Source: a virus
Virus record (IMG/VR): IMGVR_UViG_3300050821_002885
Coordinates: 1-45,331 of that record
Length of the DNA stretch: 45,331 bases
Strand: one strand, 5' to 3'
Part shown: piece by piece, positions 4,931-43,065 of the stretch
Layout: each line of letters opens with the position of its first letter
Numbering within the stretch: position 1 is the stretch's first letter
Made by a program: the position numbers and the translations under genes
Notes under the pieces: model-generated
Told to the model about the DNA's origin: nothing
The model's database searches: none
What the model saw: only the letters and a program-made list of their open reading frames with translations

Positions 4931-5079
4931 TTTGCCTTTCGAGCCTTGGCCGTCTGTTTCTTAACGTTCTTCGGGCTGGACATGTCAGCCGTCACTCCGC
5001 TCGCTCTCCCCGGCAACTTCTTCACACTCGACGTGTCAGGGGGTTTCTTACTGCTTGTTGATCTCGAACGTTTTGTCAT
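4927..5079 (-). CDS. 50-aa Lys/Ser-rich basic protein
   Basis: The chosen start is the ATG at 5077-5079, directly after a strong TGGAGGTAAG. A longer upstream reading is possible but has no ribosome site. The product begins MTKRSRSTSSKKPPD and is a disordered, strongly basic peptide of Lys, Ser, Thr and Pro, which suggests nucleic-acid binding. It sits between a lipoprotein gene and the HAD gene with overlaps at both ends, so it is co-translated with them. Function unknown. Confidence 0.6.
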   Translation of the reverse strand: MTKRSRSTSSKKPPDTSSVKKLPGRASGVTADMSSPKNVKKQTAKARKAK

Positions 5080-19221: not shown

Positions 19222-20535
19222 TTAACCCCACTCCAACCCCTTGGCGTACCCGTGTGCCTGAAGCAGGGGTAGCTGCTTCCTAAGACGCTTGCCTATATCT
19301 GTTCGGTACATAGGAGAGTTTGGAAGATGGATCGCTTTCAATCGTTTATAGCAAAGGTCGCTCGCGGCCTTGACCGTTTCGCCGGTCGCCGTCATGACGA
19401 GAACATAGTCCCCCGCTGTTACCACACTTGGAATTTCGGCGATGCTTTCCTTGACTTTATGCGTAGCCACCCCGAGCTTGCACTCGCAAAAGTGCGTGTA
19501 AGCCGGGTCTATCGGACCGTAAATAGGAACTCCAACGACCTCTTTCCGGGTAATGTGACTATACGGGTAATCGGGCATACTGACAACTACCCCTTGGCAT
19601 ACCTGATCGAACGTGAAAGTACCGGAGTCACGACCGTCGTGGAGCTGTAGGAGCCATTCAACGGGGTCACCGTCATGTAGGGGTTGTTGGATATTGAAAG
19701 TTGGCCAGCCGGGTCGCATTGTAAATTCGAGAGGCCAGGGGACACCATGATCGTCAATGATACAGTTAACATCGACATACCCGACGTAACGCTCTTTGCT
19801 GAGTTGGGGGGCGAGAGGGGAAAGAACTTTCAATGCGAGTTTAGAATTTCTCACATACCGGAGCACCGTCCCTTGCTCCCCGGTAGCGACACCTTTGTCA
19901 TCGTTCATCAGCTTTTTGAATTCGAAATTTTCGCACCACCCTACATTAAACCCATGCGGTCCATGCCACCCCCCTACTGCCATTTCAATGCCGGGGATAA
20001 ACTCTTGAAGTATGAAAGGGAACTTGATCTTTCCGAGCTTCTTCCACCGGGCGAGCATGTAGAGCATGTCCTCGGCAGATTTCGCGCAGTACGAGAGCGA
20101 TTTGTCTTCAACTTCCCCACTCGGCTTGGAGACAAGAGGAGCGTCCCTCTTCTTGATGTAGGCTACTGCTTCATCGTAACCACGAAACTCTTTGTACGGC
20201 GGGATAGGCACTTCCGCTCTCTTGAAGACATTCATTCCGACGTTTCTATCTATCTCCCATACGGCAGTGGCAATCGAAGCTCCGACAATCTTGACTCCCT
20301 CAAGCCGCCATCGGGTGTCGAGATCGTATGTGTAACGCGTATTGTCGGTCATGAAGACGAGATCAGCCCAGCGGACCCAGGGCCGATAGTCGTCCACGAC
20401 GTTGACTAGCCCTCGACCGATATGCTTCGTCTTTTCAGTCTGTCGGATCATGAGACGGACGTCGTGCCCTGCGCGTTGAGCACGCATGGCAAAGTCGAGA
20501 CCGTTACCTTGGGGGTCGACGATTAGAAGTTTCAT
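19222..20535 (-). CDS. PurD-like ATP-grasp ligase
   Basis: 437 aa. Pre-ATP-grasp nucleotide fold MKLLIVDPQGNGLDFAMRAQ, ATP-grasp core with KPSGEVEDKS, FILQEFIPGIEMAVGGW, ATGEQGTVLRY and the metal-binding LEFTMRPGWPTF. The order matches glycinamide ribonucleotide synthetase (phosphoribosylamine plus glycine plus ATP), with a C-terminal domain of PurD type. No other purine gene is present. It may raise purine supply, or ligate an amino acid to another acceptor such as a modified base. It is the last late gene, coupled by ATGA to the small membrane protein. Confidence 0.8.
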   Translation of the reverse strand: MKLLIVDPQGNGLDFAMRAQRAGHDVRLMIRQTEKTKHIGRGLVNVVDDYRPWVRWADLVFMTDNTRYTYDLDTRWRLEGVKIVGASIATAVWEIDRNVGMNVFKRAEVPIPPYKEFRGYDEAVAYIKKRDAPLVSKPSGEVEDKSLSYCAKSAEDMLYMLARWKKLGKIKFPFILQEFIPGIEMAVGGWHGPHGFNVGWCENFEFKKLMNDDKGVATGEQGTVLRYVRNSKLALKVLSPLAPQLSKERYVGYVDVNCIIDDHGVPWPLEFTMRPGWPTFNIQQPLHDGDPVEWLLQLHDGRDSGTFTFDQVCQGVVVSMPDYPYSHITRKEVVGVPIYGPIDPAYTHFCECKLGVATHKVKESIAEIPSVVTAGDYVLVMTATGETVKAASDLCYKRLKAIHLPNSPMYRTDIGKRLRKQLPLLQAHGYAKGLEWG

Positions 20536-27437: not shown

Positions 27438-27616
27438 TTTAACACCCTGAAACCGAATTGATACCAGACGGAATCCCAACGTCCTGTTGTTGCGTAGTCT
27501 GCTGCAGGCCGCATTCCTGGACTACTCAAAGTAAAAACAAACTTCTTAAACAGGACAACAGCTCTGTTAATCATTATAGGATCAGCAAGATCAGCTTCTT
27601 TGATGTACTTGATCAT
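27434..27616 (-). CDS. 60-aa protein between GNAT and internal proteins
   Basis: The start at 27616 overlaps the GNAT stop (TTATGA) behind GGGAAG. The product MIKYIKEADLADPIMINRAV...YQFGFRVLK is small and mixed-charge with one Lys/Phe-rich strand. Its stop overlaps the next start by four bases. Unknown, probably a virion accessory. Confidence 0.6.
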   Translation of the reverse strand: MIKYIKEADLADPIMINRAVVLFKKFVFTLSSPGMRPAADYATTGRWDSVWYQFGFRVLK

Positions 27617-28125
27617 AACCACTTCCCATAAAGAGTTTCTTCAGCCACGTACCCCATTCGCTTGAACAACACGTTCGTTCCCATGCCGAGCATTTCGGCC
27701 ACAAGAACCTTCTGCGCCCCTAAATTTTTCAATAGCGACTCGTTTTCACGAAGCATCTTGTAACCCGCCAAGCCTATGCGGTTAGCAGGATGAAGCCAGT
27801 ACATCGTAACAAAACCAGTTCTAACCTCCTGCTTATGATGGTGTGGTCCGATAATCGTGAAAACATAGCCAACTAGCGCAGCACCGTCTCGTGCGGTGTA
27901 AACAACAAGACGACCAAGGCGATCAGCGGAGAGATAATAATCCCAATCGACATCAACAGAAGTATGATCTCTATCAGGGTCCGTCTCATTGAAATGCTCC
28001 TTCAACAAAGGCAAAAGCTCCCCCTCGCGGAGGAGCTTATCAAGCCGTTCGCGTTGATACGTCAGGTCAAGCGGCGCGGGGTCCGAGAGTTCCTTGATTG
28101 GGCTGGGTGCTGGTTCGAGTCGCAT
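27613..28125 (-). CDS. GNAT-family N-acetyltransferase
   Basis: About 170 aa. Core: DYYLSADRLGRLVVYTARDG, LVGYVFTII, then a FVTMYWLHPANRIGLAGYKM region containing the acetyl-CoA loop (R-I-G-L-A-G-Y), and MGTNVLFKRMGYVAEETLY as the C-terminal strand. GNATs are frequent among the virion genes of podoviruses; the target is unknown. The start is uncertain: ATG at 28125 (GCAGG too close) or 28167. Both overlap the small gene at 28067-28222 in another frame. Confidence 0.8.
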   Translation of the reverse strand: MRLEPAPSPIKELSDPAPLDLTYQRERLDKLLREGELLPLLKEHFNETDPDRDHTSVDVDWDYYLSADRLGRLVVYTARDGAALVGYVFTIIGPHHHKQEVRTGFVTMYWLHPANRIGLAGYKMLRENESLLKNLGAQKVLVAEMLGMGTNVLFKRMGYVAEETLYGKWL

Positions 28126-28222
28126 CCTGCTTGACTGTGGCTGAAGTCGGCGGACGGGTACTTGCATCGCTGGCACTCGGGCTTTTGTTTGAAAGACCGG
28201 AAAGCATACCATCTTTAGCCAT
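28067..28222 (-). CDS. 51-aa Ser/Thr-rich protein overlapping the GNAT start
   Basis: A strong AGGAG lies seven bases before the ATG at 28222, better than any site for the GNAT itself. The product (MAKDGMLSGLSNKSPSASDA...) is disordered and rich in Ser, Thr, Ala and Pro. It is the first gene after a strong terminator and an RNA leader containing CCCTCCGG/CCGGAGGG and TTGGAT/ATCCAA hairpins. Function unknown. Confidence 0.55.
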   Translation of the reverse strand: MAKDGMLSGLSNKSPSASDASTRPPTSATVKQDATRTSTQPNQGTLGPRAA

Positions 28223-28336
28223 ATAAAATCTCCTGGACGGTGCCACCCCCTCCGGCTTGGATCGTCATCCAAAGTGCTAGCACCGTCGCTCGACCGGAGG
28301 GAGTCTGAGTAGCATGGCACAAACCAAAACAAAAAG

Positions 28337-28378
28337 AAAGGGCCGCCCTCGCACATGTACCGAAAAGGGCGGCCCTTT
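28337..28378 (-). terminator. intrinsic terminator, leftward
   Basis: A perfect 13-bp stem, AGGGCGGCCCTTT (28366-28378) with AAAGGGCCGCCCT (28337-28349), and a 16-base loop. On the minus strand it is followed by a T-rich run (CTTTTTGTTTT). It ends the 28409-28906 transcript. No T run is present rightward. Confidence 0.88.
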
Positions 28379-28408: not shown

Positions 28409-28906
28409 CTAAATGCAATTGAATGACAAGGTTCCAGTCGTTACCGCATTAGTAGTCGTACCCCCATTGGCGGTCACAACGGAGAGCGACCCCGCTGAAG
28501 GAACCATCGTCGCAACGTAAACAGCTGACCCTGCCGTGAAAGCAGTGGACCACTGTCCATAGCAAGACATACCCGCTGCGATCGAAGAATCCGTAACCAC
28601 AAGCGTTTGGTTGGTTCCTGTCGCAGCTACAGTGATGCCTGTAAAGAGAACCTGCCCTCGCTGCCCATTGCAGACCTGCGGCGTGCCGCCAGCCGTACCG
28701 TTGGTGCAAAATAGGCCGGGGGAAATAACTTGCGCAGGAGCGTACCCTGTTCCTCCATTGAGCTGCTGAATCAACGTATTTAACGTGTTAAGGATTGCAC
28801 TAGGATCACTATATGTAGGATTCACCGGGATAAGGGGAATGTTTGCCGCGAGCGCAATCGCACCCGAGACAAAGACAGCAGTGAGTGCAGACAAGAAGCG
28901 CTTCAT
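28409..28906 (-). CDS. exported 165-aa protein, possible moron
   Basis: Starts MKRFLSALTAVFVSGAIALA, a clear Sec signal peptide, cleaved probably before ANIP. The mature part has VNPTYSDPSAILNTLNTLIQ (fibre-adaptor-like helix) then a beta-rich Gly/Thr/Ser region with four Cys. It has its own AAAGG, a possible promoter upstream and a strong terminator downstream, so it may be expressed separately from the late operon. An exported phage protein could modify the host surface or assemble on fibres. Confidence 0.75.
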   Translation of the reverse strand: MKRFLSALTAVFVSGAIALAANIPLIPVNPTYSDPSAILNTLNTLIQQLNGGTGYAPAQVISPGLFCTNGTAGGTPQVCNGQRGQVLFTGITVAATGTNQTLVVTDSSIAAGMSCYGQWSTAFTAGSAVYVATMVPSAGSLSVVTANGGTTTNAVTTGTLSFNCI

Positions 28907-28934
28907 GGCTTTACCTTTCTTCAGTGGTTCGAAC

Positions 28935-28963
28935 TACATAGCACATTTCAGTTAGCATTGACA
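28935..28963 (-). promoter_or_regulatory. possible promoter of the exported gene
   Basis: On the minus strand a TGTGC-TATGTA block (28935-28945) resembles the TGTGCTACA extended -10 of both early promoters. The -35 at 17 bp spacing (TGTCAA, 28958-28963) is poor. The block sits in the 41-base gap before the gene. Confidence 0.3.
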
Positions 28964-30615
28964 GCGTCTTTCCAACCGTAGGCAGTAACAGCCCCTTGGT
29001 TAGTCGTAGAGCAATATTGCACGGTGTTAGTCGCACCTTCGAACATCATTCTGCCTTTGGTAGTCCCTGCCGTAAGGGTAGGTGAGACCACCAGAGGTGG
29101 CGGGTTAGTAGACGCGCCTCCCAACCCGGTATAGCTAATGTTTGGAGCTAAGATCACCCCGGCCGCTCCCCCACCTCCAAAATTATCAGTTAAAATGTAA
29201 TCACCAGCGACGGCAGTAGAAGGCATCCAAATACCCGCTCCTGAGTTTCCTCGAACAGTAAGAGCTGTATACGCTGGAGTAGTTGTTCCACAATTCATAC
29301 TACCATTAACACCACTTGTAATCAATGGAAGGGTAGCAGTCGTCGCCGTACCTGAAACGTAAAATGCTTCGTTACCGGAAATTTGCGACCCATACAAAAG
29401 ATGCGCCCCGTTCGTTTTCATCGCACCCATGTAACATATAGCTGCGTACCCCCCAGGTAAAGGAGACGGACCAGTAGAAGGAGTATTCAAGCTCCCTACC
29501 CCATTCCACGTATTTGAAGCTGAATTATAAATTGCGTAGAGGTAAACAAAGTTATTATTTCCAGGACCAGCAACATCCAGACCTGCTGCTCCTACAAGGG
29601 AGGTGTTAATTGTACCACTCTTAGCACCAGAAAAAATAGGAACATTTCCTGTAGGATTGATCAAAACAGAACTATTGAACTGCCAACTTATAATAGTGTT
29701 AGCATCATTAGTAACCTGCAACCCGCTAAATCCACAAAGAGGAGTAGGACTGACAGCTGCAGTTCCATTAGCCCTATTGTAATGAATGACTTGCCAAGTG
29801 CTTCCCCCAAGATAAAGAGCAACCGCATTATCCCCCGAAACAGTCACTATGTTCGACCCCCCTGGAAGAATTAAACTTCCCCCGTTATTGAGAGTCAACG
29901 CAGTTGCAAAATTCAACCTGTAGACGGGATAAGTAACGCTCGCCGTTGATCCAAACGAAGTAATGGAACGCCCCGCACTGCCGATTGTGAATGTGACATT
30001 GTGGCTCGCGACTGTTCCTAAATCAGCCGTAGCGCCTCCTGTATCAAGAGACGTAAGAGGCCCGAACCCACCACTCTGCGCCCCCGTCCACGCAAGCTGA
30101 AACTGCGTGCCGTCATAGATCACCAACGCAAGATTGCCAGAAATAAGCTCACCATCCACAAGCGCCTGTGGCCCGCTAGGCGTTGGACGGAAAATATTAG
30201 TAGCTGCGATCGCAGGTGTCGTAATGGCAAGGGTGGACGGACCCGTGTTAGTCGTTCCGACGGTGAATAGAACAGAAAGCCCCCGTGTCAACGAAAAACC
30301 AATACTTGGAGATAACGAACCTATAGTGTAAGCGTTAGTTCCAGAAGACGTACCTCCCAAGTATATAGAAGAACCGCCTTGCGCAGTATTAATCGGAGAA
30401 GTCAACGCAAAGAGGGCAGTAATATCGTTATTATTCCCTGTTTGAGCCGCAAGAGAAAAACACGAAACAACATTGGCAAAACGAGCATTTACTGCGAGGG
30501 CGTCAGCAATATTACCCGGAACGAAATTGGGAAGGTCAGTACAATTAACTCCCGCCCAAGCCAAGGAAGACCACAGGTAAAACAAAACAGCAAAAAACTT
30601 CTTACTGCAAGACAT
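28948..30615 (-). CDS. signal-peptide-bearing fibre-like protein
   Basis: 555 aa from the ATG at 30615 behind GGGAGG. KKFFAVLFYLWSSLAWA is a Sec signal peptide. The mature protein begins GVNCTDLPNFVPGNIADALA, an adaptor motif like that of tail-fibre N termini, and continues as Gly/Thr/Asn-rich beta structure with about eight Cys. A segment near 90-170 repeats the theme T-x-(2)-STLAITTP-x-IF-x-P as in fibre shaft proteins. Likely a fibre or adhesin that would have to be exported; how it joins virions assembled in the cytoplasm is unclear. Confidence 0.7.
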   Translation of the reverse strand: MSCSKKFFAVLFYLWSSLAWAGVNCTDLPNFVPGNIADALAVNARFANVVSCFSLAAQTGNNNDITALFALTSPINTAQGGSSIYLGGTSSGTNAYTIGSLSPSIGFSLTRGLSVLFTVGTTNTGPSTLAITTPAIAATNIFRPTPSGPQALVDGELISGNLALVIYDGTQFQLAWTGAQSGGFGPLTSLDTGGATADLGTVASHNVTFTIGSAGRSITSFGSTASVTYPVYRLNFATALTLNNGGSLILPGGSNIVTVSGDNAVALYLGGSTWQVIHYNRANGTAAVSPTPLCGFSGLQVTNDANTIISWQFNSSVLINPTGNVPIFSGAKSGTINTSLVGAAGLDVAGPGNNNFVYLYAIYNSASNTWNGVGSLNTPSTGPSPLPGGYAAICYMGAMKTNGAHLLYGSQISGNEAFYVSGTATTATLPLITSGVNGSMNCGTTTPAYTALTVRGNSGAGIWMPSTAVAGDYILTDNFGGGGAAGVILAPNISYTGLGGASTNPPPLVVSPTLTAGTTKGRMMFEGATNTVQYCSTTNQGAVTAYGWKDAVNAN

Positions 30616-32347
30616 CTGGACCTCCCAACACACTACTGTCAAGAACAAACTGCCCCGAAGGCAGGCTAGGAGTAAACGTAGTGTCATCCTGGAGATACCC
30701 AAGCAATTCGTAGCGCATATGAAGACGGCCTATCTTTAATCCTTGCGCAGAGTTCCCAGTTGCTTGAAGGTACATCCTTCTAAATACTAGTGGCGCATGC
30801 CAATCCATTCTCCTAGGAAAAAGAGCGTTATTAGCCGTTGAACCATTCCAATTTTTGTTGTTCCAGTTAAATTGGTTCCAATTCGTAGGAGTCCCTACAG
30901 ATGCGATAGTAACTTGATCCAAAGGAACTACGTCTTGATTAAAAGCTGTAATAGTTGTGGATTGTCCTGACACAAGCGCCATGTGTAAAGTAGATTGAAT
31001 AATACAAAGCTCTGACATTTGATCTGTATCAGGCAGCGGCGAAGTCTGCCAAACATAAGAAAGTTGGTTTCCATTTTCAACAAAGGTACTTGTAAAAGAC
31101 TGGAAAGCGTCACTTTGAAAAATGATTGCTCCAGCTCCTTGAAGAGTAACTAGGAATGTATCCTGATAAGGGATACCAAGAGAAACCCCAGTCGTGTGTG
31201 GTCCTGACCAGAGCTGACGAACCGTATCATACCACCATTCTTGCTGCTGGGGCGTAGCTTCTCCATTTTGCATCTGAACTCTATAAATTCCCGTGTTGTA
31301 CATCGCACTAGCACGGGAAGGCACCAAAGCAAAAATGAAAGGAACAGTAACCCCCTCTCCATCTTTTCCTATAGGATCGCTTACCTTGGCGTTGAAATCA
31401 ATCAAGCGAATCCCATCAGGGGCCATGAACAAAAGACCCTTTTCAGTGGAAGTAATAGAATTTGGAGCAAATGTACCTGTTGCAACATTCAAAGAGTTCT
31501 TAGCTAAAGTTCCAAGCGCAGCATCTCCAGTGATCTGGTAAATGTTAGACACACCCTTGAACACCATCAAAGCTTGAATAATACCTCCGAGCTGATTGCT
31601 AAGCGCTAAGCCTGCCGAACATGTCAACGGAGTGTTATCGTCAAAAGTGATTACCTGATTTGCGTTCGTTATCTGCGTCGGAAGTTCCTCATCAGAAAAG
31701 TACGCTGCAGGTTGCGCATTCGGAGGGTTAACTAAAAAATAAGCCCGGCCATTAAAGTTGCTAACCCACTGTGGAGGAAAAATAAGAGGAGTAGGCGATG
31801 TATTAGTCGCAGTCCACGTCAAAGCAAAAGGATTGAGAACATCAATGATGCCAAAGAAAGACCCCGCAGCTCCAGTAAAACCTGGATGTACTACGACAAT
31901 TTTTGACCCCACCAGAACCATCGTCGGGGGATTCCAATTACCAAAAGTAGGTGGGCTAATAGGGGAATTCGCCGCAGTCGCACCCGTAATTGGAATAAAC
32001 GACTGGGTTGGCACATCATAACAAAAAGGCTCATCCCGACTGGGGTTGCGCGTGGTGGCCACCATGCCGTAGATGCGCGTTCCAACATTGAGCCAACACG
32101 ATATAAAGCTGGCATTTGGGTGCCCAAAATCAGGACCAAAATCAGGCCCGAAGTCTCCTCCTACAGAAGCACTAAGATCAACTAATTTAACTGCTGCTGG
32201 ACGACACTGCCATAAATTTTTAGTAGTAGGATCAGGAATAAGATTGGACAACGAAGACATGGCGCCAGGAAACGAAGTCGAAGAGTCAAGCGTATCCGAG
32301 GCCCCTTTGGGGCTCCAAACAAGGGGAGTGCCAGGGAGGGTGCTCAC
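30602..32347 (-). CDS. tail nozzle / DNA-stabilisation-like protein
   Basis: 581 aa starting at a GTG (AAGGTG upstream, ATGA-like overlap). No signal peptide. It has a repeated beta-propeller-like pattern: KIVVVHPGFTGAAGSFFGII, NGRAYFLVNPPNAQPAAYFS, IQALMVFKGVSNIYQITGDA, EKGLLFMAPDGIRLIDFNAK, EWWYDTVRQLWSGPH. This sequence style is that of podovirus packaged-DNA stabilisation (P22 gp10-like) or tail-tube B proteins. It probably closes the tail and binds the spike or fibres. The segment GDFGPDFGPDFG holds a short internal triplication. Confidence 0.7.
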   Translation of the reverse strand: MSTLPGTPLVWSPKGASDTLDSSTSFPGAMSSLSNLIPDPTTKNLWQCRPAAVKLVDLSASVGGDFGPDFGPDFGHPNASFISCWLNVGTRIYGMVATTRNPSRDEPFCYDVPTQSFIPITGATAANSPISPPTFGNWNPPTMVLVGSKIVVVHPGFTGAAGSFFGIIDVLNPFALTWTATNTSPTPLIFPPQWVSNFNGRAYFLVNPPNAQPAAYFSDEELPTQITNANQVITFDDNTPLTCSAGLALSNQLGGIIQALMVFKGVSNIYQITGDAALGTLAKNSLNVATGTFAPNSITSTEKGLLFMAPDGIRLIDFNAKVSDPIGKDGEGVTVPFIFALVPSRASAMYNTGIYRVQMQNGEATPQQQEWWYDTVRQLWSGPHTTGVSLGIPYQDTFLVTLQGAGAIIFQSDAFQSFTSTFVENGNQLSYVWQTSPLPDTDQMSELCIIQSTLHMALVSGQSTTITAFNQDVVPLDQVTIASVGTPTNWNQFNWNNKNWNGSTANNALFPRRMDWHAPLVFRRMYLQATGNSAQGLKIGRLHMRYELLGYLQDDTTFTPSLPSGQFVLDSSVLGGPDVLQ

Positions 32348-32538
32348 TTATTCACCTTGTCAAGCTCCATACGAAGCTGCGCGATTGTCTTGTTGGCCTC
32401 ATCGAGCGCAATGGCGAGACGGTTGTTCTCAACAATCAGCGCTCCGATCGTCGCGCCTAAACGCTGCTCGAGCGGCGCGAGTTGCTGCGCCGAGGCCGCG
32501 GTCACGAGTAGCAATAGAGCGATAACTGTGCGCGTCAT
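32344..32538 (-). CDS. exported coiled-coil peptide
   Basis: 64 aa from the ATG at 32538, overlapping the previous stop (ATGA). MTRTVIALLLLVTAASA is a signal peptide with an ASA cleavage site. The mature part (QQLAPLEQRLGATIGALIVE...QLRMELDKVNK) is one heptad helix. It may trimerise the exported fibre products encoded on both sides. An i-spanin is an alternative, but lysis genes are 10 kb away. Confidence 0.65.
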   Translation of the reverse strand: MTRTVIALLLLVTAASAQQLAPLEQRLGATIGALIVENNRLAIALDEANKTIAQLRMELDKVNK

Positions 32539-33650
32539 CCGTATACCCAATTCCCGCTAGCGCCGCTACACACGACAGGTTGAACAACCGCACCGGTCGT
32601 AGAGACGACAGATCCAAGCGCAGGAGATGCAACGCCATTAGAGACGATGGAGCGGAGTCCTAGTCTTGCCGCGGTACATGCGACGCCGGTCAATGTTCCT
32701 GATCCACTTATTGTATTGGTTGTCCCAGTCTGAACATACGGTGCGTTTAGTGTAAATGTAGAACTCAACACCCCGTTGGTGGCATCCCAAGACATGCACA
32801 CCGCACTGGTAATTTCGTAACATATCTTTTCTCCTGCGGGAATTTGAATGGCAGCCGTGGCGAAATGCCCCAACATACCGAGGCCAACCTCAATGTCTGT
32901 CCCCGGCGTATCATTAACTAACAGCCCATAATGCGCATTTAAAGTTGTGCCGGTTGGCGCGACCGCCAGAAAAGCTGTTATCGGGTTGGCAACATTCCCA
33001 GACAGAAAGACAGTGTAACAATTCCGGACTCCGACCGCACAATCTGCGCCATTATTCTGCAGATCAAATTCAGCCGATACCTTGAAGGCCCCAGTGTCGC
33101 CAGCGCCTATGACCAAATCATTTGCCATGCCCCATGTGTTTGCTCCTGCACTCGATCCCGTCGTTGCAGAATTGAACAAACAGACTTTCGAATTAGAAAA
33201 CCCACCAGGGCCGACTGGTGTCCCGGTTGAACCAGAGTTAAGGTTGCAATCGAACGTCACCATATACTCGGCGATGGAGGCATCAAATGTTGCCGTAGAT
33301 TTAAGGTACAATGCCGAACGCTGGTGATCTCCAGAAAGACACCCAATTAAAGGGCAATTTCTGTATATAGACCCGCTTCCAGAAGTATAAAATCCATTTG
33401 TCGGAACTACAGTTTGAAGATCAACAATGGGTTGAGGAAAAGCATTAGGCATCTGAACGGTAGCGGGAAAAAATGTAGCCTGTGCCATAATATCAAGGAG
33501 CGCTCGCAACGTAGCCGCCGTATTACAGCCGTTTCCGCAACTCGTAAGCATGCTATTTATATCAGCATTGACCTGTGCCTGCGTAAGCTGAGCTTTTGCA
33601 GGACTAAGCAGCAAAAACAGACCAAGCAAGGCAATAAGGAACTTTTTCAT
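32535..33650 (-). CDS. exported Cys-rich fibre or receptor-binding protein
   Basis: 371 aa from the ATG at 33650. The N terminus MKKFLIALLGLFLLLSPAKA is a textbook signal peptide, with cleavage before QLT. The mature part has an adaptor-like helix with Cys pairs (SMLTSCGNGCNTAATLRALL) and then a jelly-roll-like beta domain with about ten more Cys (CPLIGC, DCAVGVRNCY). Paired cysteines fit disulfide formation in the periplasm. It lies between the tail adaptor and the coiled-coil gene with overlaps on both sides. Confidence 0.7.
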   Translation of the reverse strand: MKKFLIALLGLFLLLSPAKAQLTQAQVNADINSMLTSCGNGCNTAATLRALLDIMAQATFFPATVQMPNAFPQPIVDLQTVVPTNGFYTSGSGSIYRNCPLIGCLSGDHQRSALYLKSTATFDASIAEYMVTFDCNLNSGSTGTPVGPGGFSNSKVCLFNSATTGSSAGANTWGMANDLVIGAGDTGAFKVSAEFDLQNNGADCAVGVRNCYTVFLSGNVANPITAFLAVAPTGTTLNAHYGLLVNDTPGTDIEVGLGMLGHFATAAIQIPAGEKICYEITSAVCMSWDATNGVLSSTFTLNAPYVQTGTTNTISGSGTLTGVACTAARLGLRSIVSNGVASPALGSVVSTTGAVVQPVVCSGASGNWVYG

Positions 33651-33651
33651 T

Positions 33652-34365
33652 TCACCATCCAATATTCTTAGTGTTTTTCAAACGATCAAAACTTCTGCCG
33701 AAACGACGCCGATCCAGCCCGACCGTCTTCACAGCTCCCTCGCGATCGCTGACATTGCGGAGGTACGCCTTCAAAAGAGAACGCGCCCCGAGCGGGTGTT
33801 GCTCCTCATTATCCCCCATGTATTCAGCCTGCCGCTGGTCCCCAGTCAACCCCATGAGGAGACCAGCCGTCCACCGGATCAAAATCTGGGTGTTGAGAAA
33901 CCAAGGAACCATAGTCGACGTTTCTGGTGTTGCAATATCCGGCATCTGCTTCTGGTAGCGATGCGTCACCGGAAACTGCCCCGAGGGCGGCGGCCACAAC
34001 AGTATTTGAGCTGGTGATACTGACAAGTTTGTTGCATAAAACTGAGGAAAATTCTGAAACCCCGGCGTCTGTACAAGCCAATCGTATTCCGCTAATGTGA
34101 TCTGAATCATCGGATACGGAACTCCGTTGATGGTATAGAATATGTCGTCCTTACCATCAACAACCCGAGTACGAAGATAATCAGATGGAAGATTGTTGAC
34201 TGTGTTAGTTGTATAAGACTGCGTTCCCATAGCAGCATCCAAATCCCAATTCATGCACAAATCTTGGAGGCATGAATTGAGATATTGGCCAGACTGGCTC
34301 GTAAAGCCGGGGCACTTCGCCTCCTGCCTAGCTAGACTGCATATTTGCTGCGCTTGCAGGGGCAT
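33652..34365 (-). CDS. head-to-tail adaptor / tail-tube A-like protein
   Basis: 237 aa. MPLQAQQICSLARQEAKCPG at the start, a DFYLRTRV-like segment (SDYLRTRVVDGKDDIFYTIN), IQITLAEYDWLVQTPGFQNF and LLWPPPSG are typical of podovirus tail accessory factors that bind the portal ring (gp4/gp11 types). The C-terminal RRFGRSFDRLKNTKNIGW is basic. It follows the coiled-coil gene with 38 bases of overlap. Confidence 0.75.
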   Translation of the reverse strand: MPLQAQQICSLARQEAKCPGFTSQSGQYLNSCLQDLCMNWDLDAAMGTQSYTTNTVNNLPSDYLRTRVVDGKDDIFYTINGVPYPMIQITLAEYDWLVQTPGFQNFPQFYATNLSVSPAQILLWPPPSGQFPVTHRYQKQMPDIATPETSTMVPWFLNTQILIRWTAGLLMGLTGDQRQAEYMGDNEEQHPLGARSLLKAYLRNVSDREGAVKTVGLDRRRFGRSFDRLKNTKNIGW

Positions 34366-34792
34366 TCAGAAGTTCCTCATACTCTTCAATTTCGTTTTCA
34401 ATCTTGGCGATGCTCTCTTTGTATTTCTTCATGTTGACTTCTGCAATTCCCTTCTGTGACTCCTCCTGTGGACTCAACTTGTGAGGACCTTTCTTGCCTT
34501 TAGCTTCCCAAGCGGCCTGCGACCGGCCCTCGATTTTATTGTAGTCTTCAACCAACTGCGCCAAAAATTTCTTTTCATGGGCCAGTCCAAGTACCAAGTC
34601 TTTCTTCTTGTAGAACGCTTCTTGCCTGTCAGATACTCGCCCAATCTTATCCATGAGATGATTAAAGGCATGTTCCGGCTGCTCCTGTCCAAGATACGTC
34701 TGCAATACGATACTTCTATGCGGAGGTATCTGAGTTGACACAGTTATTGCAACCGCCAACTCATCTGGCGTCTTCGTATGCGGGGTTTCCAT
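34328..34792 (-). CDS. 154-aa coiled-coil structural protein
   Basis: AGGAG before the ATG. The N terminus is folded (ELAVAITVSTQIPPHRSIVL) and the remainder is a long charged coiled coil (KKYKESIAKIENEIEEYEEL). It overlaps the adaptor gene. Possibly a head-completion or assembly chaperone; no family recognised. Confidence 0.65.
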   Translation of the reverse strand: METPHTKTPDELAVAITVSTQIPPHRSIVLQTYLGQEQPEHAFNHLMDKIGRVSDRQEAFYKKKDLVLGLAHEKKFLAQLVEDYNKIEGRSQAAWEAKGKKGPHKLSPQEESQKGIAEVNMKKYKESIAKIENEIEEYEELLNAPASAANMQSS

Positions 34793-34804
34793 AAAAGCTC
34801 CTGT

Positions 34805-35266
34805 TTACACTCCTAGCAAGGATGAATTTGGCATGTACTGATGCCGTGGCCCAATAGTCAAATTCCGAGGCCCGCGGTAGAACTGACGAACTGACTCGCT
34901 GCGCCCCCGCCCGTCCAACTCGTCTTGATGCTCCCACGTTCGCCACATCTGCTCAAACAGAACGCACGCAACGGACTTCTTCACGGGGTAAGTGTAGCCG
35001 TGAAAATATTGGACCCCGTCGATTGTTGCTCCCGGGCACCACGGTGCCACGTCAATTTGGACGTGGATGATCTCTTCGTCCGGTATACTTGCCGAACGCG
35101 CTTCTGACAGCGCCTTAGCAAAATACTCATCCCGAGCCTGCTTAGACAGCTCGGTAACGACTTGCTTGCGCGCATCAGCTCGAAGCTCCTGAATCTCCTC
35201 ATCTGTAAGAATTTGAAGATTGAGAGGAAGCTTCTCACGATCAATCGGGGTTTCTTTTTTGGTCAT
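34805..35266 (-). CDS. 153-aa structural-region protein
   Basis: ATG at 35266, overlapping the upstream stop as ATGA. The first half is charged helix (EEIQELRADARKQVVTELSK); the second half is beta-rich (HVQIDVAPWCPGATIDGVQY, then FHGYTYPV) with RGPRNLTIGP near the end. A similar arrangement is seen in many podovirus-like metagenomic genomes between capsid and tail adaptor. Unknown head-tail connector role. Confidence 0.65.
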   Translation of the reverse strand: MTKKETPIDREKLPLNLQILTDEEIQELRADARKQVVTELSKQARDEYFAKALSEARSASIPDEEIIHVQIDVAPWCPGATIDGVQYFHGYTYPVKKSVACVLFEQMWRTWEHQDELDGRGRSESVRQFYRGPRNLTIGPRHQYMPNSSLLGV

Positions 35267-35607
35267 GGATTCCACAAAGTCCCGCCAATGTTAATTGCTT
35301 GCCGCGAGACAAGAATTGGCCAACCCGCCGTCGCGTCAACCATCACGATATCACCGGGGAAAGTCTTAAGCACACCCCGGTTTGGAACATATAGAAGACC
35401 GTTCTGCGTGAAAGCCCCAGGCATAGCCGTAACAGAAGACAAAATGGGGGTGTTGAGAGCCCCCACCACAGGATCAGGCGGCACATTCTGCCGATCGTCA
35501 AAAATGAGTGCCGCGATAGTAGCGATGTCCGCCGCAGCCATCTGGTTACTGATGACAAGAGTAGTCAAACCAGTGGTTGAAAGCGTTCCGCCTGTCGAAG
35601 TAGCCAT
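35263..35607 (-). CDS. 114-aa head protein candidate
   Basis: Strong GGAGG before the ATG. Beta-rich and uncharged (MATSTGGTLSTTGLTTLVIS...), with AADIATIAALIFDDRQNVPP. Directly downstream of the capsid gene with overlapping ends. Could be a capsid decoration or head-completion protein. Confidence 0.6.
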   Translation of the reverse strand: MATSTGGTLSTTGLTTLVISNQMAAADIATIAALIFDDRQNVPPDPVVGALNTPILSSVTAMPGAFTQNGLLYVPNRGVLKTFPGDIVMVDATAGWPILVSRQAINIGGTLWNP

Positions 35608-35885
35608 TAACCGCCTCCAGTCGAGAACGCTTGAATCTGCGCGAGATTAGCCGCAACGTTCATCTGCGCAGCAATGTCTGCAGCCATGGCATTCGTCAAC
35701 GTGGTCACGTCAGCCGTCAAAAACGTCTTGGTCACCTGACCGACCGGCGTAGCATTGAAAAAAGTCTTACGCTGCGCGCCGCCGGCCGCCGCCATCCCCA
35801 CGGAAGCGGCAGTGTTGCCGCTCATAGGACCCATACCGTCACCCACCCAATCGACGTTCACCTGATACGTGATTCTATAGCTCAT
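35607..35885 (-). CDS. 92-aa head protein candidate
   Basis: GGAGAG before the ATG, 13 bases after the capsid stop. MSYRITYQVNVDWVGDGMGP, then Ala/Gly/Thr-rich helices (DVTTLTNAMAADIAAQMNVA). Located next to the capsid gene, suggesting a small capsid-associated protein. No family recognised. Confidence 0.6.
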   Translation of the reverse strand: MSYRITYQVNVDWVGDGMGPMSGNTAASVGMAAAGGAQRKTFFNATPVGQVTKTFLTADVTTLTNAMAADIAAQMNVAANLAQIQAFSTGGG

Positions 35886-35897
35886 GATGCTCTCCGA

Positions 35898-37241
35898 TCA
35901 GCCGAAGGTGGCGCTGAAGGCGGACGTGGATTCGATCCGCATAAAGAACTGCTGATTCGAGATCAACGTCCCATAGAAGTTTTTCCAGCCTATCACTCGG
36001 AGCTGATTAAGAGGATCGCTCTTATCTGGCTCCTTCAAATAGGTCATTTTGATCGTATCGAGCACGACCTGCGCATAAGCCCCGCGTCCGAAGATGAACG
36101 TCGGATAGATCGTCAATCCCGTAGCTACCGGGGCCGGCGGGGTCTGCGCAAGACCAAGACCTGTGATTGTCACCACAGCTCCCGGAGCGAGCTGCGTTGC
36201 CTGTCCCGCAAGAGGACCTGTAGTCGGACCGGAAGCAGTAAGACCAAGATTAAATGGAGTGTTGGTCAACCCAATATAAACGCTGTAAGTGAACCCTGCC
36301 GTAGAAGGTAGAGTCACCTGAAGCGCACCGTTGGCTGCGGGAGTCACAGAAGGTGTAACTTGATAGATGCGCGACTCGTACTGATTCTGAATGTCTGATC
36401 CCGTAACGACAACAAAATAAGGGGAGTTGGCCAGCGTCCCACCACCCACCGCAACAGGAGTAGCAACGGCAGCAACGCCAGTAAACGTCGGAACCATATT
36501 GGTCTGACAGAACCGGATACCCCGCCACTCACCGACTTCATAATTATAAAGACGGTTTAGATCGCTGTAGCTCCAAGCCGTCACGATCGTCTGGTTTTCC
36601 GAGAGATCACCGTAAGGGAACGGATGCCCCACCGCTACATAGTGCGGCATCTTACGCGGGTTATTGGACGCCTTAGCGCCACCCGCGTCCGCCTGCAACT
36701 TCATATCGGTCATCTCGTCACCCATAAACCGAGGGGCTCCGAGATTGATCAACATAGCCGAGGCACGATTAATTTCGTGGGGGTTAAGAACATCACCAGA
36801 GGCAAGAGCAAAACGAGAGCCACGACTGTTAACATAGTTAATTTGGCTGCCCGCCAGAAGGTTCTGAAACGTATTACGTTCCATCGTTTCCGCAATTTGC
36901 AAACCAATCAACTCGGTTGCTTTTTTGAATAGCGGATGCTTAATCGTCATCTCCGCTACGTCCGTAATGGTAATTTTATCTCCCCACTGTTGCGCCTGCG
37001 CACTGACCTGTTGAAGGGTCATACTTTGACCGATCGGAGGCACACCTTCCGAAAGAGGAGCAAACGGCAACGGCACACGCGGGTAACGGCTCGCCGTGTA
37101 AGTTGTACCACTTCCCTTCGGGAGTGTCGCTGGATCACCGAACTGATAAACAACAAGCTGCCGACGTGCCAAAGGCAACGTCTTATCGGCGATGTACTGG
37201 CTTATGTCACCAGAAAACTGAGAAGCTATATTTACGGGCAT
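35898..37241 (-). CDS. major capsid protein, N4-gp56 type, with Ig-like insertion
   Basis: 447 aa behind AGGAGAG. Diagnostic features of the N4-gp56 capsid family: the GDKITITDVAEMTIKHPLFK segment (residues 92-111), followed by ELIGLQIAETMERNTFQNLL, and later FRWIG-like capsid core strands ending GWKNFYGTLISNQQFFMRIE. Residues about 253-368 form an inserted beta-sandwich (PYFVVVTGSDIQNQYESRIY, VTPAANGALQVTLPSTAGFT, YSVYIGLTN) resembling an Ig/fibronectin domain that would sit on the capsid surface. Confidence 0.88.
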   Translation of the reverse strand: MPVNIASQFSGDISQYIADKTLPLARRQLVVYQFGDPATLPKGSGTTYTASRYPRVPLPFAPLSEGVPPIGQSMTLQQVSAQAQQWGDKITITDVAEMTIKHPLFKKATELIGLQIAETMERNTFQNLLAGSQINYVNSRGSRFALASGDVLNPHEINRASAMLINLGAPRFMGDEMTDMKLQADAGGAKASNNPRKMPHYVAVGHPFPYGDLSENQTIVTAWSYSDLNRLYNYEVGEWRGIRFCQTNMVPTFTGVAAVATPVAVGGGTLANSPYFVVVTGSDIQNQYESRIYQVTPSVTPAANGALQVTLPSTAGFTYSVYIGLTNTPFNLGLTASGPTTGPLAGQATQLAPGAVVTITGLGLAQTPPAPVATGLTIYPTFIFGRGAYAQVVLDTIKMTYLKEPDKSDPLNQLRVIGWKNFYGTLISNQQFFMRIESTSAFSATFG

Positions 37242-37281
37242 TTACCGCTCTCCTAAGTTAAGGCGGTGAATGACCACCGCC

Positions 37282-38049
<768 letters not shown>

Positions 38050-38120
38050 TTCACTCTCCAGTGCGATAACGAGCACAAGTCGGGTGTGCGGTGACGGGCA
38101 CAACTCGAGGCGGGTTGCAC

Positions 38121-38149
38121 ACTTAAGAACAAAATAGGAAAAAAGTCAA
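38121..38149 (-). promoter_or_regulatory. possible promoter of the capsid operon
   Basis: On the minus strand TTGACT (38144-38149), a 17-base T-rich spacer and TTAAGT (38121-38126) lie in the 108-base gap between spike and scaffold, the largest gap in the head region. The -35 is good and the -10 weak. It would give separate control of scaffold and capsid. Confidence 0.4.
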
Positions 38150-38157
38150 GACTCCTC

Positions 38158-41022
38158 CTACAAAGCGAACAATACGACCCAATTGTTGGATGCGTTACAT
38201 ACCGCCTTGACCTTGTTAGCGCCGGTTCCCGCCGCATTGATCGTAGCGCCAGGCGTTGCCGTCGAGCTGTCAAGAATGGTAGCCGTCACCCCGGAGATAC
38301 CACTCTGACAGGCCGGCAGCAGGAATTGCGCCGGGGCCGATCCTAACGCCGATCCCGTCGTAAAAATTCCGAGATCAGTCTTCGGAACTCCGTATCCCAC
38401 GACGGGAAGTGGCTGCAGAGGAAACCGACCTGTGACGCTGGCCGTATTTGATAGCGTCATCTGGTTCGGATTGGAACCGCTGCCATTCGTGACAGTAGCC
38501 ACCTTCGTCCCCGTCGCTATTGGCCAATTCGTTCCGGAATCGTTTGAATTACCGGTGTATTGATATGTCCTCAAAATGTCGCCCACGGAGAATAAAGCAG
38601 CGATCCCCTCACCAAAAGATGATTGATTAGGGCTTCCATTAACATTCCCCAACCCACTAATGTTAGTGACCCTAGTGGACCCAGCAGCAAAATCTCCAAA
38701 CAATGTGACCATTGGCATGAAGACGTTGGCGTGAACTAGAAATGTGGCTCCTGTAAGAGCGGCACCATTTGCTATATTATTGGTGACGCAAGCTCCATTA
38801 GCATCAAGCGTCATATTATTCATTTGCCGAGTTGTAATAGTGTATGGGCCACCACCGGCTATAGCGGTAACAACATAGAGGGTTCCAGTGTTCTGATGAA
38901 ACCAGATATCTCCAACAGCAGTATTAAAGTTATCATTTCCGACTGCTTGGGCTCCTATCGAGTAACCGAAAGTCATTGTATCGCAACCTGAGATCGCTGC
39001 ACCTGTGGTGATCTGTCCATTTATATTGTGCAAGTCATTTGAAGTTCCTTGCGGTCTAAGTCCAAAGTCCAAAGTTGCGCCGTAGATATCGATCAGACCT
39101 CCTATTGCCTGCGTATATTGTATACGCCTTGCGTTGTTCACAAATTGAGGATATTTTCGTAAAAGAACGGCGCCGCCGCCAACGGTAGGAGCGGTAAGAG
39201 AACCTGAGGGGATTTGATTTTTCCAATCAACAAAATGATTGGGGGTGCTATTTAACGTCTCCTGCACCGCAGAATTTCCCATAAACAACGACCCAGCAAA
39301 TGTGCTCGCAGCCTGGACGCCACCCGTCGTATCATTCAGACCGCTGGCGTCAACCCTCTGAAACCCCTGCCATGATCCGCCATCATTGATTATGTACGGA
39401 GCATTGGCGCCGCTGTTAACTAACGTTTGCATCCGCGACCAACCATTCAGAGAGCAGTTTTTCATCGTGAGTACAGTGCTTCCGGTAATATCGAGAAAAG
39501 CCGCCGGAGACGAACCATGAAGCCAATCGTAAAAATTTATTTGACAATTCTCCAACTGAATATCACCACTGAACGCTCCAAATCCTGTAAACGATCCTAT
39601 ACGAACTAGCTCCTCAGAATACAAATCTTTACAAGCGAAATACCCTTGGTTTAGCATACGTATATTAAAATACTGATACGCATTACCAACATGTATATTG
39701 TCGCATTGAAGTATCAAAGTCCCATTTTGTTCTCCAAATGTATTATTGGAAAGAAGGGTATGAACACCACTTGAACTAATATTAGTAAATTGAACGTTAC
39801 GGGATTGGCTTTGAGAGATAGAAATGCAATAGGTAGAATGAGTACAAAGAATTTTATCAAACTTCATAAAATCACCGTTACCGTCAGTATTACCCGGCTG
39901 AACTACTATACCAACCGCAAAACCTTCGATAGTAAGGTTTATAAATTCAATATCACTCGAATTATTTTTAGCGTTAGCTGGAGGACTCACACTATATTGA
40001 TTCACAATACCCGTCCACGACGGGTAAGTAACATTCGGATAGTACGTAGTTTGTACCCCTAAATTGTCACTATAGGCATCAACACATATTGCCGCGTAAG
40101 GAGTATATCGCGTCAGCCCTCCAGATGGTCCTGGGTTACTAAATCCCGTGACAGGGTTGTTGCCCCCCGGAACCAAACCGACATCTAACCATGCAGAATC
40201 AGCAGATGGATACGCCGCTCCAATCACAGGAGAATTTGGAGGACCTCCGCTCCCACCCCTAGATAACACCCAATCAGTCCATTGAAAATTTGCCCCTAAA
40301 AATCTTATGCCCCGTATTGCTGACAAACGCGCGCCTTGAAAGTTAACAGCGCATCGATCAGTCTTAGTCGGGAGTATCCAAACAGCTCCACCCTGCATTG
40401 AAGCGCTTAAATATGACCCGCGTTCTGCTTCATTACAAGTAACCAACGATACAGAGCTAAGAGCGCTATTATTTCCTCCGTACCCCATATGAATCGTGTC
40501 AGTTGTTTTATACTTCCCGTCAGCAAGGCATACTGCGGCAAATCCGTAGCGTATGGCATAATCAACTGCAGCTTGAATAGCTGCTGTTGCATCTGTAGTG
40601 TTGTCCCCGAGTGCGCCAAACTCACAAGTCTTAACAGGAGATGTTGAATACACCGGTTCCCAATAAATTCCCCCATTCAAAATTTCCCCGTACAACCCTG
40701 CCGGAGTAGACGTGCCCCGACTAAAAAGAAGCCCACAATTGGATTGACCAGCCGTTACAGGCTGCGTTCCAGACATGGAAGTCACATAAATAATCTGAAT
40801 CGGTGTAGGAATCGTTGCAGCAGAGAGAGCTGCAGGAGTCGCTACAACCATGGTAGTGTTCGTCGCCGCAGGAGAAGGAAAATCCTGCTTCCCGGCCAAC
40901 GCCGAATTCAACTGCGCCGCAGGAAGCGTCTGCCCGGATACAAAATTTCCAGGGGTTTGGGCATAAACAAAAGAGGCAGTCAACAAGAGTAAAAAAAGAC
41001 TCAGAAAGCGGGCTCGAAACAT
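38158..41022 (-). CDS. tail spike with Sec signal peptide and pectate-lyase-like beta helix
   Basis: 954 aa behind AAGGG. FLSLFLLLLTASFVYA is a signal peptide cleaved before QTPG. It is followed by a fibre adaptor motif (FVSGQTLPAAQLNSALAG), then the pectate-lyase-3 start CEFGALGDNTTDATAAIQAA (near 130-150) and PADG-like CLADGKYKTTDTIHMGYG. The body is a long beta-helix with about 17 Cys, unusual for a cytoplasmically folded spike. The C terminus (SGISGVTATILDSSTATPGA) is a cap. It probably degrades or binds a surface glycan; active-site residues cannot be assigned. Confidence 0.8.
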   Translation of the reverse strand: MFRARFLSLFLLLLTASFVYAQTPGNFVSGQTLPAAQLNSALAGKQDFPSPAATNTTMVVATPAALSAATIPTPIQIIYVTSMSGTQPVTAGQSNCGLLFSRGTSTPAGLYGEILNGGIYWEPVYSTSPVKTCEFGALGDNTTDATAAIQAAVDYAIRYGFAAVCLADGKYKTTDTIHMGYGGNNSALSSVSLVTCNEAERGSYLSASMQGGAVWILPTKTDRCAVNFQGARLSAIRGIRFLGANFQWTDWVLSRGGSGGPPNSPVIGAAYPSADSAWLDVGLVPGGNNPVTGFSNPGPSGGLTRYTPYAAICVDAYSDNLGVQTTYYPNVTYPSWTGIVNQYSVSPPANAKNNSSDIEFINLTIEGFAVGIVVQPGNTDGNGDFMKFDKILCTHSTYCISISQSQSRNVQFTNISSSGVHTLLSNNTFGEQNGTLILQCDNIHVGNAYQYFNIRMLNQGYFACKDLYSEELVRIGSFTGFGAFSGDIQLENCQINFYDWLHGSSPAAFLDITGSTVLTMKNCSLNGWSRMQTLVNSGANAPYIINDGGSWQGFQRVDASGLNDTTGGVQAASTFAGSLFMGNSAVQETLNSTPNHFVDWKNQIPSGSLTAPTVGGGAVLLRKYPQFVNNARRIQYTQAIGGLIDIYGATLDFGLRPQGTSNDLHNINGQITTGAAISGCDTMTFGYSIGAQAVGNDNFNTAVGDIWFHQNTGTLYVVTAIAGGGPYTITTRQMNNMTLDANGACVTNNIANGAALTGATFLVHANVFMPMVTLFGDFAAGSTRVTNISGLGNVNGSPNQSSFGEGIAALFSVGDILRTYQYTGNSNDSGTNWPIATGTKVATVTNGSGSNPNQMTLSNTASVTGRFPLQPLPVVGYGVPKTDLGIFTTGSALGSAPAQFLLPACQSGISGVTATILDSSTATPGATINAAGTGANKVKAVCNASNNWVVLFAL

Positions 41023-41034
41023 CAGCTTTTCCCT

Positions 41035-43065
41035 TCAAGACGGCGGATTTGCGGGTGACCCGACGGACATACCCATCATAGAGAAAAAGTGCGGAGCATG
41101 CAACCCCGGTGGAGGAGCTGGAGGTGTACTAGAACCGTCATCGGTAGGACGCGTATTGTAAAGAAAGCCAGTCGCAAAGATCGCAGAAGTAAATCGACCC
41201 AGGAAGTGGACATTGGTCTCTGGCTGCGCCTGCAATGTGCTGAAGTCAGCAGCAATATTCAACCGCAACGCAGGAAGTATGCTATGCTGTACTGGCAGGA
41301 ACCGGCCGATGAAGCTGACGTTGGTCTCAGCAACAATAACCGCGAACAGATCAGTCGCTTGGTTCTGGCGAGCCCCTAGATAAAGATTGTAAGCGACTGG
41401 GGAATATCTTCCCAAGAAATGCGGGTTAGTCTCAGCCTGATTAAAATCTGCAACTGAATTAGATCGCAGTGCAGCTTGAATCGTGAAACTTACTGGAGTA
41501 AAACGACCGACGAAATGCGGATTAGTCTCAAAAGAAACCCCACTACTGAAATCTGCAGCGGTATTAGATCGCAACGCAGATTGGATCGTAAACCTGTCTG
41601 GAGTAAATCGACCGATGAAGTTGATATTCGTTTCTAGCTGAACCTGCGAACTGAAATCCGCAGCTATATTGCTGCGAAGAGTTGGTAAAATAGCAAACTG
41701 CGTTTGAGTAAAACGTCCTAAGAAGTGAGTATTGGTCTCAGGCTGCGTCGGCAGAGTAGTGAAATCCGCAGCTATATTCGATCGAAGCGACGTCGGTATA
41801 GTAAACTGTGCAGGAACAAACCGACCAATGAAATGAGTATTAGTCTCGACAACTGCCGTAACCGGAATATCGGTTGCATAATTCTGACGAAGGCTAGTGA
41901 GAACGTTATAGTTTGGAGCCGAGAACTTCGCGAGAAAATGTGAATTAGCTTCGACTTGTGGAGTTGCAGAACTAAAATCAGCCGCTATATTAAGACGTAA
42001 CCCACGCCATATATTAAATTGCGCCTCACTGAACCGGCCAATAAAATGAGTGTTCGTCTCGAACGTGGTTCCGCTTGAAAAGTCTGAGGCAGCGTTAATA
42101 CGAAGTCGTGAGTTTATAAAATACTGCGGCTGAGTAAATTTCCCAATAAAATGAGGCTGAGCTTCCGACTGCACCGGTAATTGCGTAAAGTCCTCTGCAA
42201 TATTTGATCGAAGTAACGGAAGAACTTTATGCGCAACAGGGGTAAATTTTCCAATAAAATGTGGTTCTGCCTCCAGCACACTAACAGCAGCAGCCCCCAC
42301 CAGCGTGACCAGCATGTCCTCTTCAGGATATATCAGAAATTGGTATGGATTTTTATCTAATTGGAGAACTTCGCTTGCGGATAGTTGCCGATTCCAGAAA
42401 AGTGCTAAAGAACAATCAGCGTTGACAGTTCTAGGTGTACCTGGAACATATTGATTTATAAATAATTGCGGCCCAGAGAAGCTGGGAGCACCGGCACCAA
42501 ATGCATCACTGGCTGCACTAACACCGTTTTTATATAGAATGGAATTTCCGCCAGTAAGAAATGTGCCGCATAAACTAAACGGCTGAGCCCCATAACTACC
42601 AGTAACATCAATGGCAGTAGTAGGAGAAGCTAGCGTCCCTGCATTATTCCAGCGACAGCCAATCGCCAAGTAATCACTAGAATCGCCTGCGATCATACGT
42701 CCATAAAATGGATTAGTGTCAGAATTAGTGTAGGTAACTCCGATTAGACTCGGAAATGTATCACCGGGGGCACCGTTTATTCTTCCACGCCAATAGCACG
42801 AAAAAGCACTTCCAGTATATGCTGCTGGAGCTGTTGTTATTAGACCGGTATTTGAACCTGTCGTATTCGATCTATACGCATACCCCTCTTTTAAGACTAC
42901 TCGGCTGCCTGGTCCTCCATCTCCTTGCGAGAGCTTGGGGCCAACAATCGGAATACCCTGCAAAGTGCCTGGAAGATAACAGCCGATCAGTCCATCAGTA
43001 AGAGGATTCGACCAGTCGACCCGTGGCACGCTCACATAAGGCTTGGCGTTGCCCTGCGCTGCCAT
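41035..43065 (-). CDS. LamG-like protein with eleven 35-residue repeats
   Basis: 676 aa. Residues 1-250 form a concanavalin/LamG-type domain (AFSCYWRGRI, DYLAIGCRWNN, DCSLALFWNRQLSASEVLQL, NPYQFL). Residues 265-644 are ten full and one partial copy of a roughly 35-residue unit, consensus ETN-x-HFIGRF-x(3)-F-x-I-x(3)-LRSNIAADFSS. The end is Pro-rich with a Met-rich tip. No signal peptide. The repeats resemble no shaft motif I know; they could form a solenoid fibre that displays the lectin-like domain. Confidence 0.75.
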   Translation of the reverse strand: MAAQGNAKPYVSVPRVDWSNPLTDGLIGCYLPGTLQGIPIVGPKLSQGDGGPGSRVVLKEGYAYRSNTTGSNTGLITTAPAAYTGSAFSCYWRGRINGAPGDTFPSLIGVTYTNSDTNPFYGRMIAGDSSDYLAIGCRWNNAGTLASPTTAIDVTGSYGAQPFSLCGTFLTGGNSILYKNGVSAASDAFGAGAPSFSGPQLFINQYVPGTPRTVNADCSLALFWNRQLSASEVLQLDKNPYQFLIYPEEDMLVTLVGAAAVSVLEAEPHFIGKFTPVAHKVLPLLRSNIAEDFTQLPVQSEAQPHFIGKFTQPQYFINSRLRINAASDFSSGTTFETNTHFIGRFSEAQFNIWRGLRLNIAADFSSATPQVEANSHFLAKFSAPNYNVLTSLRQNYATDIPVTAVVETNTHFIGRFVPAQFTIPTSLRSNIAADFTTLPTQPETNTHFLGRFTQTQFAILPTLRSNIAADFSSQVQLETNINFIGRFTPDRFTIQSALRSNTAADFSSGVSFETNPHFVGRFTPVSFTIQAALRSNSVADFNQAETNPHFLGRYSPVAYNLYLGARQNQATDLFAVIVAETNVSFIGRFLPVQHSILPALRLNIAADFSTLQAQPETNVHFLGRFTSAIFATGFLYNTRPTDDGSSTPPAPPPGLHAPHFFSMMGMSVGSPANPPS
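41134..42273 (-). repeat. coding array of ~105-bp repeats
   Basis: The DNA encodes the eleven repeats described for the 41035-43065 protein. Copies 5 to 7 are the most alike and copies 1, 4 and 9 the most diverged. Unit length varies from 32 to 36 codons, so copies were gained by old duplication followed by drift. Confidence 0.85.

Follow-up and report, generated by a model that had tools for sequence, protein, structure and literature searches.

Leader-bearing proteins of the late arm

We analyzed the genome of an uncultured virus, IMG/VR record IMGVR_UViG_3300050821_002885, whose 45,331 nucleotides (positions 1 to 45,331) are called the window here. Five genes of its late structural arm encode proteins that begin with predicted signal peptides (leaders), and we refer to genes by their left coordinates (Table 1). 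The genome is of the podovirus type, with a SU10-like adaptor, a SU10-like portal (below cut-off) and a phage capsid protein, and its replication arm lies on the opposite strand from the late structural arm. The five proteins lie near adaptor and nozzle, as tail fibres and tailspikes do. Our own codon-usage gene caller, which gave a set of 42 window genes, accepted all five genes, and the N termini to which the first-pass annotation had assigned signal peptides proved to be real; that of 28948 has a GGGAGG ribosome site.

Signal peptides were called with a home-made rule set. By these rules the proteins show the charge of the n-region, the hydrophobic core, the AxA site and the mature boundary of Sec preproteins. 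Among the 42 window genes, only these five and the holin-like 22429 scored positive, and when the residues of the five N termini were shuffled, between 0 and 3.3% of trials scored as high as the real sequence. The 32344 protein, for which no relative was found in the loci fetched, is the weakest of the five cases. Export signals were also seen on two more small window proteins, a Sec signal at 7733-8014 (+) and a lipoprotein-like one with the lipobox LAGC at 5076-5330 (-); neither has relatives in the loci fetched. The set is selective, as had been noted for the nozzle and LamG neighbours: nozzle, LamG-like protein, adaptor, capsid and scaffold are without leaders, and the same selectivity holds clade-wide. 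LamG-like 41035 is the sole large leader-less fibre candidate in the window's late arm.

Table 1. Late-arm features of the window. Leader-bearing genes start with the ATG at their higher coordinate; ^ marks the predicted cleavage point.
Feature	Coordinates	Strand	Signal peptide	Predicted leader and cleavage	Mature cysteines	Remarks
Small fibre-like protein	28409..28906	-	28847-28906	MKRFLSALTAVFVSGAIALA^ANIP	4	helix and beta-sandwich after the leader
Tail-fibre-like protein	28948..30615	-	30553-30615	MSCSKKFFAVLFYLWSSLAWA^GVNC	6	ADAxxVxANF anchor domain, DITALxxLTxP linker
Nozzle / stabilization-type tail protein	30602..32347	-	none			control neighbour; position matches the 'stabilization protein' of compared phages
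Coiled-coil-like protein, 64 amino acids	32344..32538	-	32488-32538	MTRTVIALLLLVTAASA^QQLA		orphan
Fibre-like protein	32535..33650	-	33591-33650	MKKFLIALLGLFLLLSPAKA^QLTQ	12	divergent DNTTGxITPxxLR-type anchor domain
SU10-type head-tail adaptor	33652..34365	-	none			PF24175, E 1.8e-8
Pectate-lyase-type tail spike	38158..41022	-	40960-41022	MFRARFLSLFLLLLTASFVYA^QTPG	16	PF12708 below cut-off
LamG-like/repeat protein	41035..43065	-	none			control neighbour

Two further genes on the minus strand were noted. A GNAT acetyltransferase-like gene (27613-28356, -) stands directly after the fibre genes and is kept in most relatives; a GNAT-like gene also follows the fibre genes in Pseudoalteromonas phage Y3 and lies beside the short tail fibre gene in BPP-1. 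A GARS-like ATP-grasp protein (19222-20535, -; PF01071 above cut-off) at the end of the late strand is kept in nearly all relatives.

Leaders and anchor domains across the clade

A search with the window's capsid protein found 69 viral loci, with identities of 48-90% for the majority, and the terminase is common to 20 genomes of 41-47 kb with 36-91% identity. We surveyed 19 genomes, all uncultured: 18 of these 20, which we annotated, and the window. Signal peptides were called on 74 of 143 late-arm variable genes (52%) and, where these encode at least 250 amino acids, on 42 of 60 (70%). They were called on 5 of 188 conserved late genes (3%), 4 of 100 genes further along the late strand and 11 of 221 opposite-arm genes (5%). 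For the variable genes of the opposite arm the figure is 10 of 126, from which the late-arm variable genes differ sharply (Fisher p 9e-16). These counts are rough: the caller at times sets a start upstream of the leader, the 28948 homologue of one relative (G008) scored negative though its leader is visible, and the positives include a small number of membrane proteins (c45). The late arms of eight relatives (G002, G004, G005, G006, G013, G014, G016 and G017) contained no large fibre candidate without a leader, once endolysin-like, barrel-like and ligase-like genes had been removed from the list by hand. Export signals on fibres appear to be a trait of a group of uncultured soil phages that includes the window, most of whose putative fibre and spike proteins carry them.

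The leaders are not all of one type. Tat-type signals occur on three spike- or fibre-like late-arm proteins of two relatives: c115 of G004 (L191:13335-14201), with the motif LSRRGFVSG, and c237 (L207:6818-7606) and c239 (L207:9792-13436) of G010. Furthermore, two distant metagenomic phages, MW202637 and MW202477, have leaders on a small fibre-like gene that follows a stabilization-type gene, so the trait may extend beyond the clade.

We collected the N-terminal domain of 28948 from viral contigs. It reads LPxxLxNGTxADAxQVMANFN, then DITALLxLTTP, and was found in 72 distinct forms, of which 58 lie directly behind a signal peptide (two of these were assigned by eye) and 14 directly after the initiator Met (as in L043, L065, L075, L079 and L101), so that the cleavage point falls where the Met-starting forms begin. 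The leaders diverge, with a mean identity of 28%, and the first 30 mature residues average 55%; Ala nevertheless stands at -1 in 55 of 56 leaders and at -3 in 48 of 56. Likewise, a second anchor domain (DNTTGxITPxxLR) occurs 19 times with a leader and eight times after a Met start, and the mature start of 32535 scores 17.6 bits against its hidden Markov model. The body of the 38158 spike is 30% identical to that of the spike of G001, which has a leader-less anchor of the DNTTGxITPxxLR type. Leader-less and leader-bearing anchor domains occupy the same gene position. At the level of sequence the predicted signal peptides are shown to be genuine, a module under selection, and export of these proteins appears close to certain.

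Cysteines, fibre-type domains and gene fusions

Cysteine numbers differ between exported and other proteins. Counting one member per cluster, 36 of 41 mature late-arm proteins with signal peptides have an even number of cysteines and five an odd one, whereas 47 of 105 other genes have an even number and 58 an odd one (Fisher p 1.8e-6). Even counts in mature exported proteins are a mark of disulfide pairing. In the 28409 family, ten aligned relatives all lie behind a hydrophobic leader-like segment and have even counts; two cysteines never vary, and four of the ten have lost both members of a second pair. A cysteine pair is found in 45 of the 58 leader-bearing forms of the 28948-type domain and in 0 of the 14 Met-starting forms. 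The description of the four larger window proteins as cysteine-rich needs correction for 28948, which is not especially so. The helices expected after cleavage are present in the AlphaFold models, at residues 18-37 of 28948 and 15-29 of 28409.

Fibre-type domains were found in several of these proteins and their relatives. The 28948 linker matches the SU10 tail fibre (PDB 7z47, E 1.8e-8) and another tail fibre (8vbx), and the linker motif is present in SU10 gp12 (DITSLxGLTTPL). The PF12708 match that 38158 shows below cut-off is above cut-off in relatives. Leader-bearing relatives also include two proteins with Peptidase_S74 above cut-off (c88 of G002, c162 of G008) and one with a pectate-lyase body (c89 of G002), and such proteins match PHROG tail-fibre families with E down to 4e-13. 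28409 and 32344 have no fibre or spike family match, the 38158 spike has no match among phage records, and tblastn with the short domain in phage records found nothing. Foldseek gave no match at E ≤ 0.001 for the two AlphaFold models (28948 and 28409), and thus folds, including a weak resemblance of the 28409 model to the tips of the pyocin fibre and the Sf6 tailspike, are not used as proof.

In the window the start codon of 32535 lies directly behind the adaptor stop codon. In three lineages (L012, L016/L017 and L025) the adaptor open reading frame lacks a stop codon and continues in the same frame across a leader-like segment and into the fibre, reaching 745 amino acids in G003 (L012). The segments end in AEA, AKA or AHA, and no ATG stands ahead of the leader. 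These in-frame fusions suggest that adaptor and fibre are part of one structure.

Bacterial chromosomes, mainly those of Alphaproteobacteria, also encode secreted proteins with the 28948-type anchor domain, a signal peptide and a Cys pair. They were noted at L158, L163, L170, L174 and L179, beside large genes and, in Rhizobium, in tandem. RHS genes lie nearby in the two loci checked, which makes it likely that phage fibres and host surface proteins exchange modules. We also looked for a host with the capsid protein, in seven genomes that contain the secreted domain and in 397 genomes from a single order, and no candidate was convincing; that the host is an alphaproteobacterium is no more than a guess. 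Among late-arm genes of relatives, c45 (L203:6652-7737, L225:1312-2301) and c59 (L194:14918-15802) resemble, below cut-off, an O-antigen ligase (Wzy_C) and an outer-membrane barrel (OMP_b-brl); a change of the host surface by such genes is possible.

Proposed periplasmic folding and comparison with known systems

Cleavable leaders on fibres and spikes suggest folding outside the cytoplasm before the proteins join the particle. We consider it probable that the receptor-binding fibres and the spike are exported, mostly by Sec and sometimes by Tat, undergo oxidative folding in the periplasm and become attached to virions when the cell lyses. This reading builds on the signal peptides, the cysteine parity, the fibre-type domains and their retention across the clade; leader processing, disulfide formation, the timing of the steps and attachment to virions would follow from it. 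Fibres and spike would be made as preproteins and exported from the cytoplasm by the host Sec system (Tat in a few relatives), signal peptidase would cut the leader at AxA, and the cysteines would pair in the oxidising periplasm, where the fibres would assemble. Meanwhile, heads with adaptor and nozzle would be built in the cytoplasm as usual, and lysis would mix the two compartments and let the fibres bind adaptor and nozzle. In extracts, P22 heads that are already complete can still receive tailspikes, which makes such late joining plausible. For the stronger version we see about even chances: a two-compartment assembly line, with heads and nozzles made in the cytoplasm, fibres made in the periplasm and both joined only at lysis, in which some members would make an adaptor-fibre polyprotein that host signal peptidase splits.

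The first-pass annotation had offered three readings: periplasmic folding with attachment after lysis, surface adhesins or glycan enzymes, and decoys. The first is the best supported, because of the cysteine parity, the Cys pairs lost together, the tail-fibre families, the exchange of anchor domains, the adaptor-fibre fusion and the eight genomes without leader-less fibres; its virion attachment we infer, and adhesins or decoys are possible for some members. Several points weigh against periplasmic folding. Our rule set also calls signal peptides on 3-5% of other genes, and the clade is known from uncultured genomes only, from which we infer virion membership. Late-arm variable genes with a hydrophobic start include O-antigen-ligase-like and barrel-like ones, endolysin-like genes lie there as well, and some signal-peptide genes of relatives probably encode outer-membrane barrels or membrane proteins, not fibres. 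A tree of the 28948-type domain has only two supported independent Cys/leader pairs, a test low in power, and with so few independent changes the Cys/leader association in this domain is weak as independent evidence. Finally, a hydrophobic segment inside one frame, as in the fusions, needs internal TTG or CTG initiation or polyprotein processing.

In the main rival reading the exported proteins would be no part of the virion. They would remain at the infected cell, on its surface or close by, and serve as decoys, as masks for receptors or as surface proteins active on glycans, which would prevent superinfection or the binding of progeny to debris, in the manner of a multi-gene Lom. The signal peptide-bearing lom of lambda lies between tail fibre genes in the late operon, and the barrel-like and ligase-like late genes of relatives and the chromosomal secreted homologues beside RHS genes agree with this view. 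It would, however, leave eight relatives without a large receptor-binding candidate, and the leader-less anchor domains in the same gene position, the adaptor-fibre fusion, Peptidase_S74 and the tail fibre families speak for fibres; we regard it as unlikely. Rather less probable is that the leaders stay uncleaved and anchor the fibres, or the fusion of adaptor and fibre, in the inner membrane, with tails finished at the membrane surface. The in-frame fusions of three lineages, in which no ATG precedes the leader, would suit a tether, and SAR endolysins are a precedent for phage proteins with uncleaved export signals, but the strict AxA with its near-invariant Ala at -1 and a mature start that equals the Met start of leader-less homologues point to cleavage, and the even cysteine counts point to the periplasm.

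Two further explanations we hold to be very improbable. The signal peptides could be functionless relics that came with genes acquired from secreted proteins of the host, and the secreted homologues of the anchor domain on chromosomes speak for this; yet the leaders diverge while keeping AxA, are shared by numerous unrelated fibre families and persist throughout a clade whose terminases are down to 36% identical. Wrong starts or chance hydrophobic N termini would fit the predictor's calls on other genes and the 11-25% of trials in which shuffled N termini of these proteins pass a loose threshold. Chance and wrong starts were rejected on the clade-wide statistics, the conserved cleavage boundary and the clean reference phages.

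If periplasmic folding of the fibres is true, disulfide-rich receptor-binding domains are open to phages and fibre joining becomes a step at lysis. Leaders would also be a means to spot receptor-binding proteins in metagenomes, and the exchange of fibre modules with secreted host surface proteins having the same anchor domain would be accounted for.

To our knowledge, tailed phages are held to assemble wholly in the cytoplasm. Our search of the open-access literature turned up no account of tailed-phage fibres with signal peptides, nor of a tailed phage that makes its fibres by export; the phage signal peptides found there belong to Lom, lysis proteins and a superinfection protein. In Agrobacterium phage Milano, a tailed phage too, a disulfide network stabilises tail parts, but the main text mentions neither signal peptides nor the periplasm (PMC10811340).

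Lambda Lom, scored positive by our predictor, resembles the window proteins in its signal peptide, its late operon and its place adjoining tail fibre genes. It is, however, a single host-surface protein, whereas several fibre and spike families carry leaders here and barrel-like genes are a separate minority in relatives; the window proteins match no outer-membrane barrel family, and an extra gene of one relative does so weakly. The coat proteins of filamentous phages (M13 pIII and pVIII) are Sec-dependent, being synthesised as preproteins with signal peptides that reach their mature form outside the cytoplasm, a likeness that would extend to virion proteins if the window proteins join the particle. 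Filamentous phages are extruded through the membrane, whereas the window phage, with terminase relatives, a SU10-type portal and a capsid protein, must lyse the cell.

In layout the window proteins resemble podovirus fibres. SU10 gp12, P22 gp9 and T7 gp17 share with the window proteins a gene position around adaptor and nozzle and an N-terminal anchor with a beta-rich body, and S74 chaperone domains in relatives and the linker common with the SU10 fibre extend the resemblance. Lack of an export signal is a usual, not a strictly defining, trait of fibres. No signal was called on lambda J and side fibres, P22 gp9, T7 gp17, epsilon15 gp20, BPP-1 Mtd and fibres, the fibres of Y3 and StenR_269, or SU10 gp12, and a borderline call on SU10 gp13 looks false. 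The window proteins depart from this pattern: whereas the reference fibres are without signal peptides, most fibres of this clade have predicted cleavable leaders and paired cysteines.
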